Part shown: positions 49,257 through 54,909 of the stretch, one piece after another
Layout of the letters: each line of letters opens with the position of its first letter
Numbering within the stretch: position 1 is the stretch's first letter
Source: Chthoniobacterales bacterium
GTDB taxonomy: Bacteria; Verrucomicrobiota; Verrucomicrobiia; Chthoniobacterales; JACTMZ01
DNA length: 64,000 nucleotides
Direction: 5' to 3'
Assembly: GCA_018402585.1 (NCBI GenBank)
Contig: JAGYIO010000004.1
Span: 62,001 to 126,000, forward strand
Notes under the pieces: model-generated
Told to the model about the DNA's origin: nothing
What the model saw: only the letters and a program-made list of their open reading frames with translations
Database searches by the model: none
Program-made: the position numbers and the translations under genes

Positions 49257-49505
49257 ATGGGCACATGGCAACTGCAAGAGGCCAAGCAGCAATTCTCGAA
49301 GGTTGCCGCACGAGCCGCCACCCGTCATCCGCAACTGGTCACCAAGCACGGCAAGCCGTTCGTCGTCATCGTCGATGCCGCCACCTGGCAACGCGAAAGC
49401 GAACCCCGACGCAGCCTGCTCGAAGTCCTGCAGGATTGCCCCTCGGATCTGACTGACTTGCCGCTGGCCCGAAGTCACGACCTTCCCCGGCCCGCGAAGC
49501 TGTGA
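49257..49505 (+). CDS. Phd/YefM-type antitoxin
   Basis: An 82-residue antitoxin: the DNA-binding Phd/YefM core reads WQLQEAKQQFSKVAARAATR and GKPFVVIVDAATW, and the tail is the toxin-wrapping part. Phd antitoxins usually repress their own operon. The stop overlaps the toxin start (GTGA at 49502-49505). Confidence 0.9.
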   Translation: MGTWQLQEAKQQFSKVAARAATRHPQLVTKHGKPFVVIVDAATWQRESEPRRSLLEVLQDCPSDLTDLPLARSHDLPRPAKL

Positions 49506-49927
49506 GCTGGTTGCTCGACACCAATGTGATCTGCGAGCCGACGCGGCGCGCGCCCTCGCCACACGTGGTGGAGTGGCTGCGGTCCGTTTCTTCCTCCGGG
49601 TTTTATGCCAGCATCATCACCCTGGGGCAAATCCGCCGCGGCATCCTGCGGTTGCCATCCGGCAAGAGGCGCCGCAAACTCGAAAAATGGATGCGGGAGG
49701 ATTTCCTGCCCGCCTTCGACGGACGCATCCTGCCTCTTGGCGAAGAGGAAATCACGGCTTGGGCCGAGATGCTGGCCGCCTTGGAAAAACGCGGCCGCTC
49801 CATGCCGGCCATCGACAGCCTCATTGCCGCGACGGCCCTGGCCCGCGACCTGACCATCGCGACCCGCAATACGGAAGATTTCGCCCACAGCGGCGCGCCA
49901 GTCTTCGATCCTTGGCGGCCGGGCTAA
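49502..49927 (+). CDS. vapC: VapC-like PIN-domain toxin
   Basis: A 141-residue PIN-domain ribonuclease. Asp6 (LLDTNVI), Asp105 (AIDSLIAATAL) and Asp126 (NTEDF) are present. The second acidic position of the active site, normally Glu in an EIRRGI-type motif, is Gln43 here (GQIRRGI), so activity may be reduced. Translation starts at GTG 49502, coupled to the antitoxin. Confidence 0.9.
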   Translation: MSWLLDTNVICEPTRRAPSPHVVEWLRSVSSSGFYASIITLGQIRRGILRLPSGKRRRKLEKWMREDFLPAFDGRILPLGEEEITAWAEMLAALEKRGRSMPAIDSLIAATALARDLTIATRNTEDFAHSGAPVFDPWRPG

Positions 49928-50006: not shown

Positions 50007-50594
50007 ATGTACGCGCTCATCTTCCGCGTATTTTTGTGGACCACGGCCTGTCTGGTTTTCGCCACGGGGCGCGCAGTGGGGGCCGACGAGAGAAGTTCCC
50101 AGCTTCCCAAAATCGCAACCTACCGGCTCGTCGAGATCATCAACCGCGTCCAACCTGAAGGCGTCGCGGTATTTTTTCGGCCGGCGGAAAAGCGCGATGA
50201 ATACAAAAAGCTCCAGGACCGGCAGCGGGCCCTGGCCGCGGCGATTTCCGATAACTCGCGCCCGCCCGGGGACTTCAACCCGCAGTTGCAGCAAGACATG
50301 GCTGAGTTCAATTTGATCCAGGCCAAGCTTGATCTGTTCAGGCAGACGTTCGGCTGGCACGGAAGCTCCGAGGAGGAGTCCAAGATCCTCGGCTACCTTC
50401 GCACGAATTATCTCGCCAAGTATCCGCTCATTATCGAGGAACAGACTTGGATCGCGATCAAAGACAAGTTCAGCAAGAGCATGGTCGGAGACATCGAAGT
50501 GGTGGACCTCACCCCCGAGGTGATCAAAACAATGCTGGAGGCAACGGGACGCGCTGACCCCGGATCACCGCGTGGAGACATCCGCGGGAACTGA
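50007..50594 (+). CDS. Secreted coiled-coil protein, paralogue of the convergent neighbour
   Basis: A 195-residue exported protein with a signal peptide (about 1-26). A charged helical region (about 60-120) is followed by a C-terminal segment YPLIIEEQTWIAIKDKF...VEVVDLTPEVIKTML (abridged). The same blocks, starting IATYR, occur in the convergent gene that ends at 50615. The size and layout recall Skp/OmpH-like periplasmic proteins, but I cannot assign a family. Confidence 0.68.
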   Translation: MYALIFRVFLWTTACLVFATGRAVGADERSSQLPKIATYRLVEIINRVQPEGVAVFFRPAEKRDEYKKLQDRQRALAAAISDNSRPPGDFNPQLQQDMAEFNLIQAKLDLFRQTFGWHGSSEEESKILGYLRTNYLAKYPLIIEEQTWIAIKDKFSKSMVGDIEVVDLTPEVIKTMLEATGRADPGSPRGDIRGN

Positions 50595-50614: not shown

Positions 50615-51247
50615 TCAGCCGCCTTTTGGCAGGGTCTTCCCGTCGATTTCGTCCTGCAGCGCCCCGATGACCGGGCCGGTCAAGTCGGTCACCTCGACCC
50701 CCGTGCCGAAGGCGCCGGTAAAATTCGATTTGAGCTGGTTGTAGGCTTCGGATTCCAAGATGACCGGAAACTCCGCGCCGAATTTCCCGGCAATGAAGTC
50801 GAGAAGAATACTCCCTTGGTTGATGCTCGCCCGCTGCTGGAGAATGAAATTTTGGGCGAGCTGCCGCCTCTCCTGCATGAGAAAATATTCTTTCTTGGCA
50901 GCCTCCAGCTCGTCCATCGTTTGCAATCCCAACGCGCGGTCACGCATCGCGGTTTCGGCGACCTCAAGCTCTTTGAGCTGACGGCGCATTTCGACGGGAA
51001 GAAGAAGGAGTTCGGTTCTTCCCATGACCTCATTGCTGATTTGCTGCTCGCGGTAAGTGGCCAGCTTGACTTTCGGGGCAAGCAGAGCCCCGGTAACTGG
51101 CGGGTCCTCGGCCTGCGATTGGCCATGGGCGGACGTCTCGACGAACGCGGACGACCCGCGTACCAGCCCGAGTTTCGCTTCCACGAGAACGCCCAACACC
51201 ATGCCTGCTAAGCAGCCGCCAAGGCCGAGAAGCATCGAAAATCGCAC
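50615..51247 (-). CDS. Membrane-anchored coiled-coil protein, paralogue of the convergent neighbour
   Basis: A 210-residue protein with an N-terminal hydrophobic segment (about 3-25), a coiled-coil stretch (about 85-135) and a C-terminal block FPVILESEAYNQLKSNF then VEVTDLTGPVIGALQDE that matches the neighbour at 50007. The pair converges with 20 bp between stops. Function unknown. Confidence 0.68.
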   Translation of the reverse strand: MRFSMLLGLGGCLAGMVLGVLVEAKLGLVRGSSAFVETSAHGQSQAEDPPVTGALLAPKVKLATYREQQISNEVMGRTELLLLPVEMRRQLKELEVAETAMRDRALGLQTMDELEAAKKEYFLMQERRQLAQNFILQQRASINQGSILLDFIAGKFGAEFPVILESEAYNQLKSNFTGAFGTGVEVTDLTGPVIGALQDEIDGKTLPKGG

Positions 51248-51345: not shown

Positions 51346-52758
51346 TCAACGCCGCTTGCCCGGCGCACGTTTGGCCGGACGTTTTCCGCCGCGGGTGCGC
51401 AGGCGTTTTTCCGATTCCGGGCGGGCGCGCAAATCGAGGATCAGGGGTAGTCCGGGATATTCGCGCACCCGGCGCAATTGGGCGCTGAGATACGTTTCGT
51501 AGGTCGGCGTGAGCAGGCCGGGAGCATTGACGAAGAAGAGGAAGCGGACCGGGGCAAAGGGGCGCGGCTGCGTCTCCTCGAGTTGCGTGGCGTAAAAGAC
51601 CTTCAACCGGCGCGTGCCTTTCAGCGGCGGCGGGTGGAGACTCATGGCATCGCGGACCACACGGTTCAACTCGCCCGTGCCGAGCCGGCGGGTGGCGTGC
51701 TGGCGCACTTTTTCCAGGGTGGTCCCAAGACGCTGCAGATTGTCGCCCGTCTTGGCCGAGAGCAGGACCATTGGGGCGTAGGGCAGAAAAAAAAGTTGCG
51801 CGTGCCAGATGGCAAGCTGTTCCTTGAGGCCGTCGCGCTTTTGGTCCTCCTCCGGAATCAGATCGGCCTTGTTCACCGCGATGACCACCGCCTTGCGCGC
51901 TTTTTGCACCAGACCGGCAATGCGCTTGTCTTGCTCGGTCACACCGACTTGGGCGTCGACGACCAGCACGCAGACGTCGGCCATGCGGATCGCTTCCTCC
52001 GAGCGCATGACGCTGAAGACTTCGACCGACGTGTTGTGTTTGGAACGGTGACGGATCCCCGCGGTGTCGAGCAGGAGGTAATTGTGCCCGCCCAACTCGC
52101 AGGGCACCTCGAGCGCGTCGCGGGTCGTGCCGGCGATTTCGCTGACAATGGCCCGCGCACTGCCGAGGAGCGCGTTGGTCAAAGAGGATTTGCCCACGTT
52201 TGGGCGGCCGATGATGACGATGCGGGGCGGGATCTTGACCTCGGGGGCCTCGATTTTTTCTTCGGCCGCCCCGAAGGCCTCGTCGATGGCCGAGATCAGA
52301 TCGCTCGTGCCGCGACCATGCACCGCACTGACCCCGACGAGGCGCGGAAAGCCGAGACGCTCGAACTCCGCCTCGCGGTCATCGTGCTTCGGATCATCGA
52401 TCTTGTTGACGACCAGCACGACCGGGCAAGAGGCGCGGCGCAGCTTTGCGGCCAACTCGTTGTCGAGCGGGAGGAGTCCGTCCTGCCCATCGACGACAAA
52501 GAGCACGACATCGGCACCGACCAGGGCATCGTCGGCCGCACGGTGCGTGGCCTCGGCGAAATCGGGATCCGGCGAGGCGCCAATGCCGCCGGTGTCGACA
52601 ATCCCGAAGAGATCGGGGCCGAGTTTGCAGACCGCCTCGATGCGATCGCGTGTCACCCCGGGTTGGTCGTGCACGATGGAAATGCGCCGCCCGGCCAAGC
52701 GGTTGAAGAGGGCAGACTTTCCGACGTTCGGACGGCCCACGAGGACGGCTTTTTTCAT
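51346..52758 (-). CDS. der: Ribosome-assembly GTPase Der
   Basis: Der (EngA) has two tandem GTPase domains and helps assemble the 50S subunit. Both are intact in the 470-residue protein: first [19 protein letters not shown] and NKID; second [21 protein letters not shown] and NKADL. The C-terminal KH-like domain and a basic tail ([12 protein letters not shown]) follow. ATG 52758 overlaps the pgsA stop (ATGA). Confidence 0.96.
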
Positions 52759-53324
52759 TGCGCTTGCGCCGCCCCTTCCATGGCGTGCATACCGCGCCAC
52801 ATGTAGCCGAGGCCGCTGAGCAAAGTGCAGAGCCCGGCCGCCCAGACCACCCACTGCTGTTCAGGAATCTGCAGGAGGACCCAAGCCACGGTAGCCATTT
52901 GCAGGGTGGTGGCAATTTTCCCGAGCATGCTGGGACGCACTTCGACGTCGCCGGTGAAAAATTTGAGCAGTCCGCAGCCAACGAGAATCACCACGTCGCG
53001 CGCGATGACCAGCACGGGGAACCAGAGCGGCAGGCTCACCGGCCACGGATAGAAGCTCAAGGTGATGATGGCGCTGAGGAGGAGGCCCTTGTCGGCGATC
53101 GGATCGAGCACCACGCCCAACGCGCTGCGTTGGTTGAAGCGGCGCGCAATCCACCCGTCGAGGCCGTCGCTCGCCGCAGCAACGACAAACACCGCGACGG
53201 CAGCCCAGCGCAACCACTCTTCGGCCGCCCCGGCGCGCACGCTCACCGAGTAGTAAACGGCGAAGACGACAAAGACCGGAATGAGCACAATGCGCACCAG
53301 CGTGATTTGATTGGCCACCGTCAT
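52755..53324 (-). CDS. pgsA: CDP-diacylglycerol-glycerol-3-phosphate phosphatidyltransferase
   Basis: A 189-residue membrane enzyme of the CDP-alcohol phosphatidyltransferase family, the first step of phosphatidylglycerol synthesis. The full motif [18 protein letters not shown]...LDPIADKG is present, in the pattern D-x2-DG-x2-AR-x8-G-x3-D-x3-D. The N-terminal ANQITLVRI is typical of PgsA. ATG at 53324 was chosen; the longer frame upstream has no homology. Confidence 0.93.
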
Positions 53325-53413
53325 GAACCATGAGGGTGCCGCCCCAGTGCCCGCACGGCAACAGATTCTTCCTGTATTTCGCCTCCAGCCAATGCATGGT
53401 GCATCCTCTCGCA

Positions 53414-54082
53414 ATGAATGCCCCCCTGCTCCATTGCCGCGAACTGCAGTGCGTCCGGCCACTCTGGCGGGAAGGTGATTCGCACGTGCGGGGCGTGAGC
53501 GCCGTCTTCGCATCGGGACAATTCCATGCCATCAGCGGCCCGGAGGGCTGCGGGAAGAATCTGTTCCTGCATGTGCTCGGACTGCTCGAGCAACCCGAGG
53601 CCGGCGAGGTCTGGCTCGGCGAGGTCAATACCACGAAATTACCGGCGGCCGAACGCGACGCGCTGCGCCTGCGCCAGATGGGCTTTCTTTTTCCAGCCTG
53701 CGCCCTGCTGCCTTCCTTGAGTGTGCTGGAAAATATCGCCTTCCCCGTCCTCAAGGCCGGCGGCACGAACGAAGCCGAGCAAGCCGAATGCACTCTGGCC
53801 GCCCTGCGGTTTTGCCATTTGGAAGAGGTGGCGGAACAGCGGGTCGGCGATCTTGCCGCAGACCGTCAGGCCGTGGCCGCCTTTGCCCGCGCCATCATCC
53901 ACCGGCCGCAACTGCTGCTCGCCGAGTCGCCCGCCGCCGAGGAGCTTCTTGTTCCCCTCGCCCGGCGTGCGGTCGACGAACTCGGCCTCACCGTGGTCTG
54001 GGGGGCCCGGCCGGACGGACCGGCCTGCCGCGCCGCCGACCGCCGGATCCGCATGGCCGACGGACGCCTCGAAGGGGCATGA
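53414..54082 (+). CDS. ABC ATPase-like protein with degenerate motifs
   Basis: A 222-residue protein with the fold order of a LolD-type ABC ATPase (LPSLSVLENIAFPVL is typical) but every catalytic motif is altered. Walker A is GPEGCGKN (42-49), keeping Lys48 but not the Ser/Thr; the Q-loop Gln is Pro94; the signature is VGDLAADRQ instead of LSGGQ; Walker B is LLLAES instead of LLLADE; no switch His is seen (VVWGARP). It is probably not an active ATPase. It overlaps the downstream synthase gene (ATGA), so it may have a regulatory or structural role there. No permease gene is adjacent. Confidence 0.82.
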   Translation: MNAPLLHCRELQCVRPLWREGDSHVRGVSAVFASGQFHAISGPEGCGKNLFLHVLGLLEQPEAGEVWLGEVNTTKLPAAERDALRLRQMGFLFPACALLPSLSVLENIAFPVLKAGGTNEAEQAECTLAALRFCHLEEVAEQRVGDLAADRQAVAAFARAIIHRPQLLLAESPAAEELLVPLARRAVDELGLTVVWGARPDGPACRAADRRIRMADGRLEGA

Positions 54083-54909
54083 ACCCGCTTCTTCCGCCCG
54101 GGCAGCTCAATGCGGCGGCCATTCTCCGGGCCAGCAAGTCGAACTTCCTCCCGGCATTCCGCTTGCTGCCCGCGGAGCGCCGTCACGACCTCGAAATATT
54201 TTACGCCTTCTGCCGCCTGATCGACGACCTGGCCGATCGCGGCTCGGCTCCGCCCGGCCTGCGCCGCCAAGCACTCGCGGCGTGGCGCACTGCTTTCCTC
54301 GCGGCCGACTTCGCCGGCTTACCCGGCAACCTCGCCTCCTTGATCCGGCGACGGAACCTCGACCGGCAACTCTTCCTTGAGTTGCTCGACGGCACAGCGA
54401 CCGATCTCGCGCCGCGAGTGCGCATGGGAACGCGGTCCGACCTCGACCTCTACTGCCACCGGGTGGCCGGAACGGTGGGACAAATCTGCCTGCCGATTTT
54501 CGGAGCCGATCCCCGGCGCGCGAAGGAGTATGCCGAAACCCTCGGACGCGCCCTGCAATACACCAACATCCTGCGCGACACCGCCTCGGACCTGCAACGC
54601 CAGCGCTTTTATTACCCGCTCGATGAGGTGACCGCCGCCGGCCTGGAACCGGAGTTGTTCCCCTCCGGCGCGGAGCGGTATCTCGCGACATTCGCCGCCG
54701 AAGCAGGGCAACTTTTCGAACAGGCCGCGCGCCTTGAGCCTCCCGCCGATGCACGCGCCCTGCGTCCGGCCCGCATCATGGCGGCGATTTACCGGGCCCT
54801 CCTGCAAAAAATGCAGCGCGACCATTTGCGAGTGACCGAAAAACGCTACCGCCTTTCGGGACTGGAAAAACTTTTCGCGGTGGGGCGCGCCCTGCTCGCG
54901 CCTCAGTAG
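54079..54909 (+). CDS. Squalene/phytoene synthase family protein
   Basis: A 276-residue prenyl-condensing enzyme. Both aspartate motifs are intact: DDLAD at 49-53 and NILRDTASD at 163-171. The length and the end (KYRLSGLEKL-like) resemble HpnD or HpnC of hopanoid synthesis, or a bacterial phytoene synthase; these cannot be separated without alignment. No other carotenoid or hopanoid gene is in the window. Coupled to the upstream ABC-like gene. Confidence 0.88.
   Translation: MNPLLPPGQLNAAAILRASKSNFLPAFRLLPAERRHDLEIFYAFCRLIDDLADRGSAPPGLRRQALAAWRTAFLAADFAGLPGNLASLIRRRNLDRQLFLELLDGTATDLAPRVRMGTRSDLDLYCHRVAGTVGQICLPIFGADPRRAKEYAETLGRALQYTNILRDTASDLQRQRFYYPLDEVTAAGLEPELFPSGAERYLATFAAEAGQLFEQAARLEPPADARALRPARIMAAIYRALLQKMQRDHLRVTEKRYRLSGLEKLFAVGRALLAPQ

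Follow-up and report, generated by a model that had tools for sequence, protein, structure and literature searches.

A conserved pseudo-ABC protein encoded upstream of an HpnD-like synthase across the order Chthoniobacterales

In degenerate-site ABC exporters such as TM287/288, TAP and ABCC proteins, non-canonical Walker and signature residues occur in a nucleotide-binding domain (NBD), and one canonical site shared by the two NBDs is kept (excerpts of PMC7756269). The pseudo-ABC protein treated here, pABC, has non-canonical residues at the same motifs. Compared with the exporters in those excerpts it differs in three ways: (i) it is a stand-alone NBD, (ii) elements of both half-sites are lost, and (iii) its partner gene encodes a synthase. 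A canonical composite ATP site of the kind kept by a degenerate-site heterodimer is not found in pABC, as the signature and Walker B are both lost.

The other close comparison is with LolD. The two proteins agree in fold, length, best structure and profile matches and in the segment that follows the Q-loop, which reads FTALENVAMPLL in E. coli LolD, and LolD-like exporter ATPases form the sister clade of pABC. They differ in that the catalytic motifs are all lost in pABC and that the best NCBIfam models, both LolD, are matched far below their cut-offs (91.8 bits against 360 for NF008639, 91.3 bits against 307.75 for TIGR02211).

The gene directly downstream belongs to the SQS_PSY family. HpnD, the enzyme that makes presqualene diphosphate from FPP in the hopanoid/squalene pathway, is the best of six models for its product, and both Asp-rich motifs are retained; unlike described HpnD it scores below the curated cut-off (218.3 vs 278.6 bits) and is coupled to pABC. 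No description of the pairing was found among the listed titles and abstract openings of the PMC papers searched.

The pABC gene and the coupled synthase

The window, i.e. the whole stretch of 64,000 nucleotides that was analysed, carries the two genes on one strand (Table 1). The original prediction had placed an ATPase and a prenyl synthase here with an ATGA overlap, and its coordinates and frame are right: pABC starts with the ATG at 53414 and stops at 54080-54082, and the HpnD-like gene starts with the ATG at 54079.

Table 1. Features of the pABC locus, in window coordinates.
Feature	Position	Strand	Basis or remark
pgsA-like CDP-alcohol phosphatidyltransferase, divergent, conserved neighbour of pABC	52755..53324	-	profile match
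Divergent intergenic region, 89 bp; site of the membrane-protein gene in relatives	53325..53413		
pABC, pseudo-ABC nucleotide-binding-domain protein, 222 aa	53414..54082	+	ORF, profiles, motifs, predicted fold, orthologues
Walker A remnant GPEGCGKN (vs GxxGxGK[ST]); Lys retained, Ser/Thr lost	53537..53560	+	
Q-loop position FLFP, Gln replaced by Pro	53684..53695	+	
Segment after Q-loop, LLPSLSVLENIAFPVL; best-conserved part of the pABC family	53705..53752	+	column identity
Signature lost, LAADR instead of LSGGQ/E	53852..53866	+	
Walker B remnant LLLAESPAA; neither the Asp nor the catalytic Glu position kept, D-loop deleted	53912..53938	+	
H-loop lost, VVWGARPD	53993..54016	+	
ATGA in which the pABC stop overlaps the HpnD-like start	54079..54082	+	same 4-nt overlap in 35/39 named loci
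HpnD-like gene of the squalene/phytoene synthase family, product of 276 aa with both Asp-rich motifs	54079..54909	+	SQS_PSY 186.3 bits

The window protein matches the Pfam ABC_tran profile with 51.3 bits (cut-off 25). Its AlphaFold2 model has a complete NBD fold (pLDDT 92.4, pTM 0.90), and the top PDB matches to the model are LolD chains (Foldseek E 6e-22), which bears out the expectation that the order of the fold is kept. The state of the motifs was read from an alignment with four intact ABC proteins. All five ATPase motifs are changed, as had been predicted from the DNA, with the qualification that Walker A is the least affected and only partly degenerate. In Walker B, LLADEPT has become LLAESPA, so that both acidic positions are altered. 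No catalytic motif is intact, and the P-loop Lys is the sole survivor in the window protein. By its sequence, a protein that matches the ABC profile appears to be no ATPase, and pABC would be devoid of ATPase activity.

In the coupled synthase the Asp-rich motifs DxxxD and NxxRDxxxD are both retained; they are present in 58 of 60 synthase loci, the window included, and the two loci that miss the pattern (G017 and G027) have another residue in place of the first Asn. The product is HpnD-like, putatively a presqualene/squalene synthase. A carotenoid role in the window's genome is ruled out by a separate phytoene-synthase-like gene in a crtE-crtI-crtB-crtY-blh-like cluster on contig C23. No squalene-hopene cyclase is matched in this genome. 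A family search for HpnE gave nothing above the cut-off and weak hits in all genomes, the window's included, and is uninformative. A published survey reports hopanoid genes in Chthoniobacter flavus and a pathway that ends at squalene in most neutrophilic Verrucomicrobia (PMC9543262, in excerpt); the latter statement, as far as the excerpt goes, fits a genome without a cyclase match.

In G000, positions 2888-8576 of L101 (G000:C23:355000-367000) hold in a row genes for a prenyl synthase, crtI-, crtB- and crtY-like proteins and a Brp/Blh beta-carotene dioxygenase, a predicted retinal pathway. The strongly reduced genomes G017 and G027 of the same order (0.9 Mb, single contig) keep an HpnD-like gene and have no adjacent pABC, no membrane protein of the kind described below and no squalene-hopene cyclase. 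Elsewhere in the window, an open reading frame at 49257-49505 (+) overlaps another at 49502-49927 (+) by 4 nt, and the two look by eye like a type II toxin-antitoxin pair, the first product being presumably a Phd/YefM-type antitoxin and the second a PIN-domain (VapC-like) protein. The convergent genes 50007-50594 (+) and 50615-51247 (-) have products that look related by eye, both ending like 'EV.DLT..VI', and may be a divergent duplicate.

Distribution, motif loss and selection

Orthologues were collected in two ways. Fifty-seven relative genomes were searched for pABC and synthase genes, and the fetched regions were scanned with profiles; separately, 84,980 named species genomes were scanned with one conserved peptide pattern, which gave 46 loci. 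Of these loci 39 score above 200 bits with the family profile and are taken as the pABC family. The other seven score below 140 bits, have no synthase in the vicinity and are ABC ATPases of the ordinary kind. The set of 32 pABC-bearing genomes and the set of 39 loci overlap, as identical lengths of several contigs show, and their counts are not additive.

Among the 57 relatives, pABC lies directly upstream of the synthase in 32, drawn from seven family codes (f1, f5, f6, f7, f8, f10 and f11). A 4-nt overlap is called in 27 of the 32 under the start rule; two of the remaining five have GTGA at the same place, and three have gaps of 3, 150 and 217 nt. The named loci give the same picture: the synthase directly follows pABC in 38 of 39, with the 4-nt overlap in 35. 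At L126, the one exception, the 12.7 kb examined contain no remnant of a synthase. Most named loci are labelled Chthoniobacterales, Spartobacteria, Chthoniobacter or Verrucomicrobia, and the cultured Chthoniobacter flavus Ellin428 is among them (L127). A few are labelled as other Verrucomicrobiota, for example Prosthecobacter (L140), whose sequence falls among the family rows in the tree. Outside the order, in a class sample of 141 genomes, the best matches reach at most 184 bits, and the best of these, a LolD-like set, have intact motifs. A search of plasmids returned only matches below 60% identity, general ABC proteins where annotated. pABC occurs across the order Chthoniobacterales (Verrucomicrobiota), which comprises soil and freshwater bacteria, and its coupling to the synthase is order-wide. 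Of the 56 relatives that have an HpnD-like gene, 24 have it without pABC.

The loss of motifs extends over the whole family. In the 39 named loci the Walker A Lys is retained in 33, the Ser/Thr in 3 and the Glu position in 7, and the Q-loop Gln, the SGG, the Walker B Asp and the H-loop His in none. The corresponding numbers for the 32 relative genomes are 27 (Lys), 3 (Ser/Thr), 5 (Glu position), 1 (Gln) and zero for SGGQ, Walker B Asp and His. The original prediction held that orthologues with intact motifs would make this a decaying copy; a Walker B Asp, a signature or an H-loop His is found in 0/32 genomes and 0/39 named loci, and the neofunctionalised reading is supported.

Two readings take the altered site as their starting point. 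The first is that pABC still binds nucleotide, either as a nucleotide-sensing regulator or as one half of a heterodimer whose other NBD is intact and comes from a different locus. The frequent retention of the P-loop Lys (33/39) and the presence of intact NBDs in the genome are in its favour. With Walker B, Q-loop, H-loop and signature lost, however, neither composite site would be complete, unlike those of degenerate exporters in the excerpts of PMC7756269. Moreover, several members (G033, G031 and G053) have lost even the P-loop, and the D-loop is deleted in many, all of which makes the reading improbable. The second is that pABC is a decaying pseudogene, for which the lost motifs would speak. 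It is scarcely credible: dN/dS is well under 1, frames are open in the aligned members and the gene is retained order-wide. A decaying copy is ruled out by the orthologue set together with dN/dS.

The selection estimates (Nei-Gojobori) come from the window's genus. pABC gives a dN/dS of 0.14-0.23 in the six pairs with dS below 0.7, and 0.08-0.36 over all 45 genus pairs, many of which are near saturation. For HpnD the ratio is 0.21-0.24 in five of the same six close pairs, the sixth being without synonymous change. The similar values in close pairs indicate that the constraint on pABC is about as tight as that on the enzyme it is paired with.

Where this constraint falls was examined by column identity after near-duplicates had been thinned, leaving 25 pABC sequences of 40 and 15 intact relatives of 22. 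The pABC family is the more divergent overall (mean column identity 0.50 vs 0.60 in intact relatives), and the difference is larger in the P-loop (0.59 vs 0.95), the Q-loop (0.67 vs 0.97) and the signature (0.42 vs 0.96). After the Q-loop the order is reversed, with 0.83 in pABC and 0.71 in the intact relatives. In ABC NBDs, this post-Q-loop segment forms the contact surface with the permease. Residues invariant over the order are L57, G64, G90, F93, L98, E106, N107, A109, P111, R159 and P165. The conservation pattern is that of a protein in which the ATP site has been lost and the docking face kept.

These data also bear on the idea that pABC is a translational-coupling cistron, whose translation, rather than its product, sets the amount of HpnD. 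The near-universal 4-nt overlap and the freedom of the catalytic motifs to drift are what such a cistron would show. The strong purifying selection on the amino acids of pABC and the residues invariant over the order, needless in a mere leader cistron, make it quite unlikely, and less likely than nucleotide binding. The comparisons of orthologues support the view that pABC is a conserved, neofunctionalised pseudo-ABC protein and not a product of decay, probably with a new role other than that of a transport motor.

Ancestry and relation to LolD

The 39 pABC family rows form one clade (support 100/100) in an 85-row tree. The sister of this clade is an intact LolD-like clade, with support of 95/96 that becomes 99/97 after removal of long rows. 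A placement of pABC inside the intact LolD-like clade of the order itself is rejected (AU p 0.0006, a value that carries the caveat of long branches). The sister clade adjoins an FtsX-type permease-like gene in G028 and is found above 360 bits in 11 of the 57 genomes, all f4 or f9, none of which has pABC beside the synthase.

This LolD-like clade is distinct from canonical LolD. In all four pABC genomes checked, canonical LolD and a LolC/E-type permease are both present, apart from each other, and the best match of the canonical LolD, at 52-58% identity, is the LolD beside LolC/E in other orders. The intact canonical LolD with its LolC/E-type permease in 4/4 genomes means that pABC is no replacement for LolD, and excludes pABC as the genome's LolD in partnership with an orphan LolC/E-type gene. 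No FtsX-type or LolC/E-type permease gene lies beside pABC in the window; by gene order, a LolC/E-type gene is located elsewhere in G000.

Separation of the canonical LolC/E-type and LolD genes was seen in G000 (C31/C23), G016, G034 and G049 (L235-L243), and adjacency in three genomes belonging to other orders (L174, L176 and L180). Contig C14 of G000 (4.7 kb) has ABC matches identical to those of C12:316676-320155 and is probably a redundant contig.

The upstream membrane protein and the possible role of pABC

Clustering of the open reading frames that flank pABC loci revealed a previously undescribed polytopic membrane protein, encoded directly upstream of pABC in many relatives. In 24 of the 39 named loci its gene (360-440 aa) precedes pABC in the same orientation, one of these loci holding a remnant. 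It overlaps pABC by 4 nt in five loci; the gap is below 180 nt in most others and 399, 903 and 1521 nt in three. The original prediction that no permease is adjacent is correct for the window, and needs amendment for the many relatives with an adjacent membrane protein, though this is no recognised ABC permease. Lack of a membrane partner is hence not a family trait: it is limited to the window's genus and some relatives.

The protein is matched in 29 of the 57 relatives; beyond the order, 120 genomes of the class gave no match. It is absent from all 11 searched genomes of the window's genus and from several f6/f7 genomes that retain the pABC-HpnD pair; a stop interrupts the gene in G015, and G020 retains only fragments of it. 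A divergent pgsA is found upstream in 16 of 40 pABC loci, with the membrane-protein gene between pgsA and pABC in six and missing there in ten, the window included. From this gene order, the most likely history is that the window's genus lost the membrane-protein gene. In f9, most of f4, G042 and G047, where pABC is absent, the gene immediately precedes HpnD.

The membrane protein has no sequence match in Pfam, NCBIfam or PDB chains. Its AlphaFold2 model (pLDDT 87.6, pTM 0.87) gives no Foldseek match in the PDB at E 0.001. VIA-align on the Foldseek candidates gives Z scores of 14.9 for CTL1, 14.7 for PNS1 and 9.5 for CysZ, the next being 4.7, although an arrangement common to helical bundles can be enough to give Z values of this size. 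The model is suggestive of a fold resembling CTL1, PNS1 and CysZ and not an ABC permease. From the CTL/SLC44 proteins (hCTL1 and yeast PNS1) and from CysZ, it differs in being a bacterial protein without sequence match that is linked to HpnD and squalene-hopene cyclase. The likeness of CTL and CysZ was independently pointed out in a 2026 paper, in which a non-transport role is proposed for CTL proteins (PMC13160678, in excerpt).

The link to the cyclase is one of co-occurrence. In 56 genomes, squalene-hopene cyclase is present in 24 of 27 with the membrane protein and 3 of 29 without it, a strong link by count that nevertheless comes down to some four independent contrasts, not enough for a sign test. 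In these counts G010 is left out (no synthase match), cyclase matches below 100 bits (G015, G025 and G032) are treated as absent, and the degraded copies of the membrane-protein gene in G015 and G020 are scored absent. pABC itself has no link to the cyclase (13/32 with pABC, 14/24 without, p 0.28).

For pABC and HpnD, covariation of rates was assessed from their distances with Der as control gene and 2000 permutations. The partial correlation given Der is 0.10 over 28 genomes (511 of 2000 permutations as high) and -0.18 after one fast genome is dropped. A subset with one f1 genome gives 0.42 (55/2000), which falls to 0.05 once the fast genome is removed. Pair-specific co-evolution could not be demonstrated. 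Of the predicted joint function with the synthase, the coupling stands, order-wide (32/32 and 38/39); the rate covariation against Der is negative. A joint function of pABC and HpnD is a plausible inference.

The preferred explanation, on which opinion is evenly balanced, is that pABC is a conserved pseudo-ABC protein of LolD-like ancestry that has lost hydrolysis and serves as an accessory subunit of the HpnD-like synthase, docking at the membrane. pABC shares ancestry with a LolD-like (FtsX-type exporter) NBD. ATP hydrolysis would have been lost before the sampled pABC-bearing families of Chthoniobacterales diverged, and nucleotide binding probably too in several lineages. The protein would have stayed as a stable accessory subunit of the co-translated presqualene/squalene synthase, with the post-Q-loop surface, which normally docks on transporter coupling helices, holding the synthase or linking it to a membrane protein. 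Such docking would place HpnD at the inner membrane, where its product goes. The membrane partner in many relatives, and in hopanoid makers, may be the upstream CTL/CysZ-like protein; in the window's genus this protein is missing and the pABC-HpnD pair is left by itself. Direct binding of HpnD by pABC, and tethering of HpnD to the membrane through it, are what this explanation would require.

The intact fold, the motif loss throughout the family, the adjacency to the synthase, the purifying selection, the single clade, the conserved post-Q-loop segment, the separate LolD and the persistence of the pABC-HpnD pair without the membrane protein count for an accessory subunit. Counting against it are the 24 HpnD-like genes without pABC, the one named pABC locus without a synthase (L126) and the negative co-evolution result. 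As the post-Q-loop segment is a permease contact, its conservation fits a membrane partner other than HpnD just as well.

The main rival builds on this last point. It holds that pABC is a docking or regulatory NBD whose seat is the CTL/CysZ-like protein, or an unlinked membrane protein in the case of the window's genus, and that the connection with HpnD is merely shared expression in a lipid operon. The position of the membrane-protein gene, upstream on the same strand in so many loci and overlapping in some, is consistent with this, as are the retained permease-contact surface and the sister relationship to an exporter ATPase clade. On the other hand, the window's genus (11/11 genomes) and several f6/f7 genomes with the pair lack the membrane protein, it stands directly before HpnD without pABC in the lineages named above, and its predicted fold is unlike an ABC permease. 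This rival is doubtful, if clearly less so than nucleotide binding or a leader cistron.

Returning to the accessory-subunit explanation, its extension is that Chthoniobacterales may have a membrane-associated complex for squalene synthesis, in which HpnD is held by an ATP-free NBD and, in hopanoid makers, by a CTL/CysZ-fold protein. This proposal is tentative and on balance doubtful. No such complex appears in the PMC literature searched.

ABC NBDs are among the commonest protein modules and are annotated as ATPases, and the pABC family would be annotated as a transporter ATPase. It is instead an order-wide NBD of single origin that has lost nearly every catalytic element and remains under selection beside a terpene synthase, and it offers a direct way of testing which functions remain open to an NBD once ATP is out of play. 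The membrane protein linked to hopanoid synthesis, undescribed and with a fold predicted to be CTL-like, is present in the cultured Chthoniobacter flavus Ellin428, and the function of CTL proteins themselves is disputed. If the proposed complex is real, Chthoniobacterales would have a metabolic module made of transporter parts that no longer transport.
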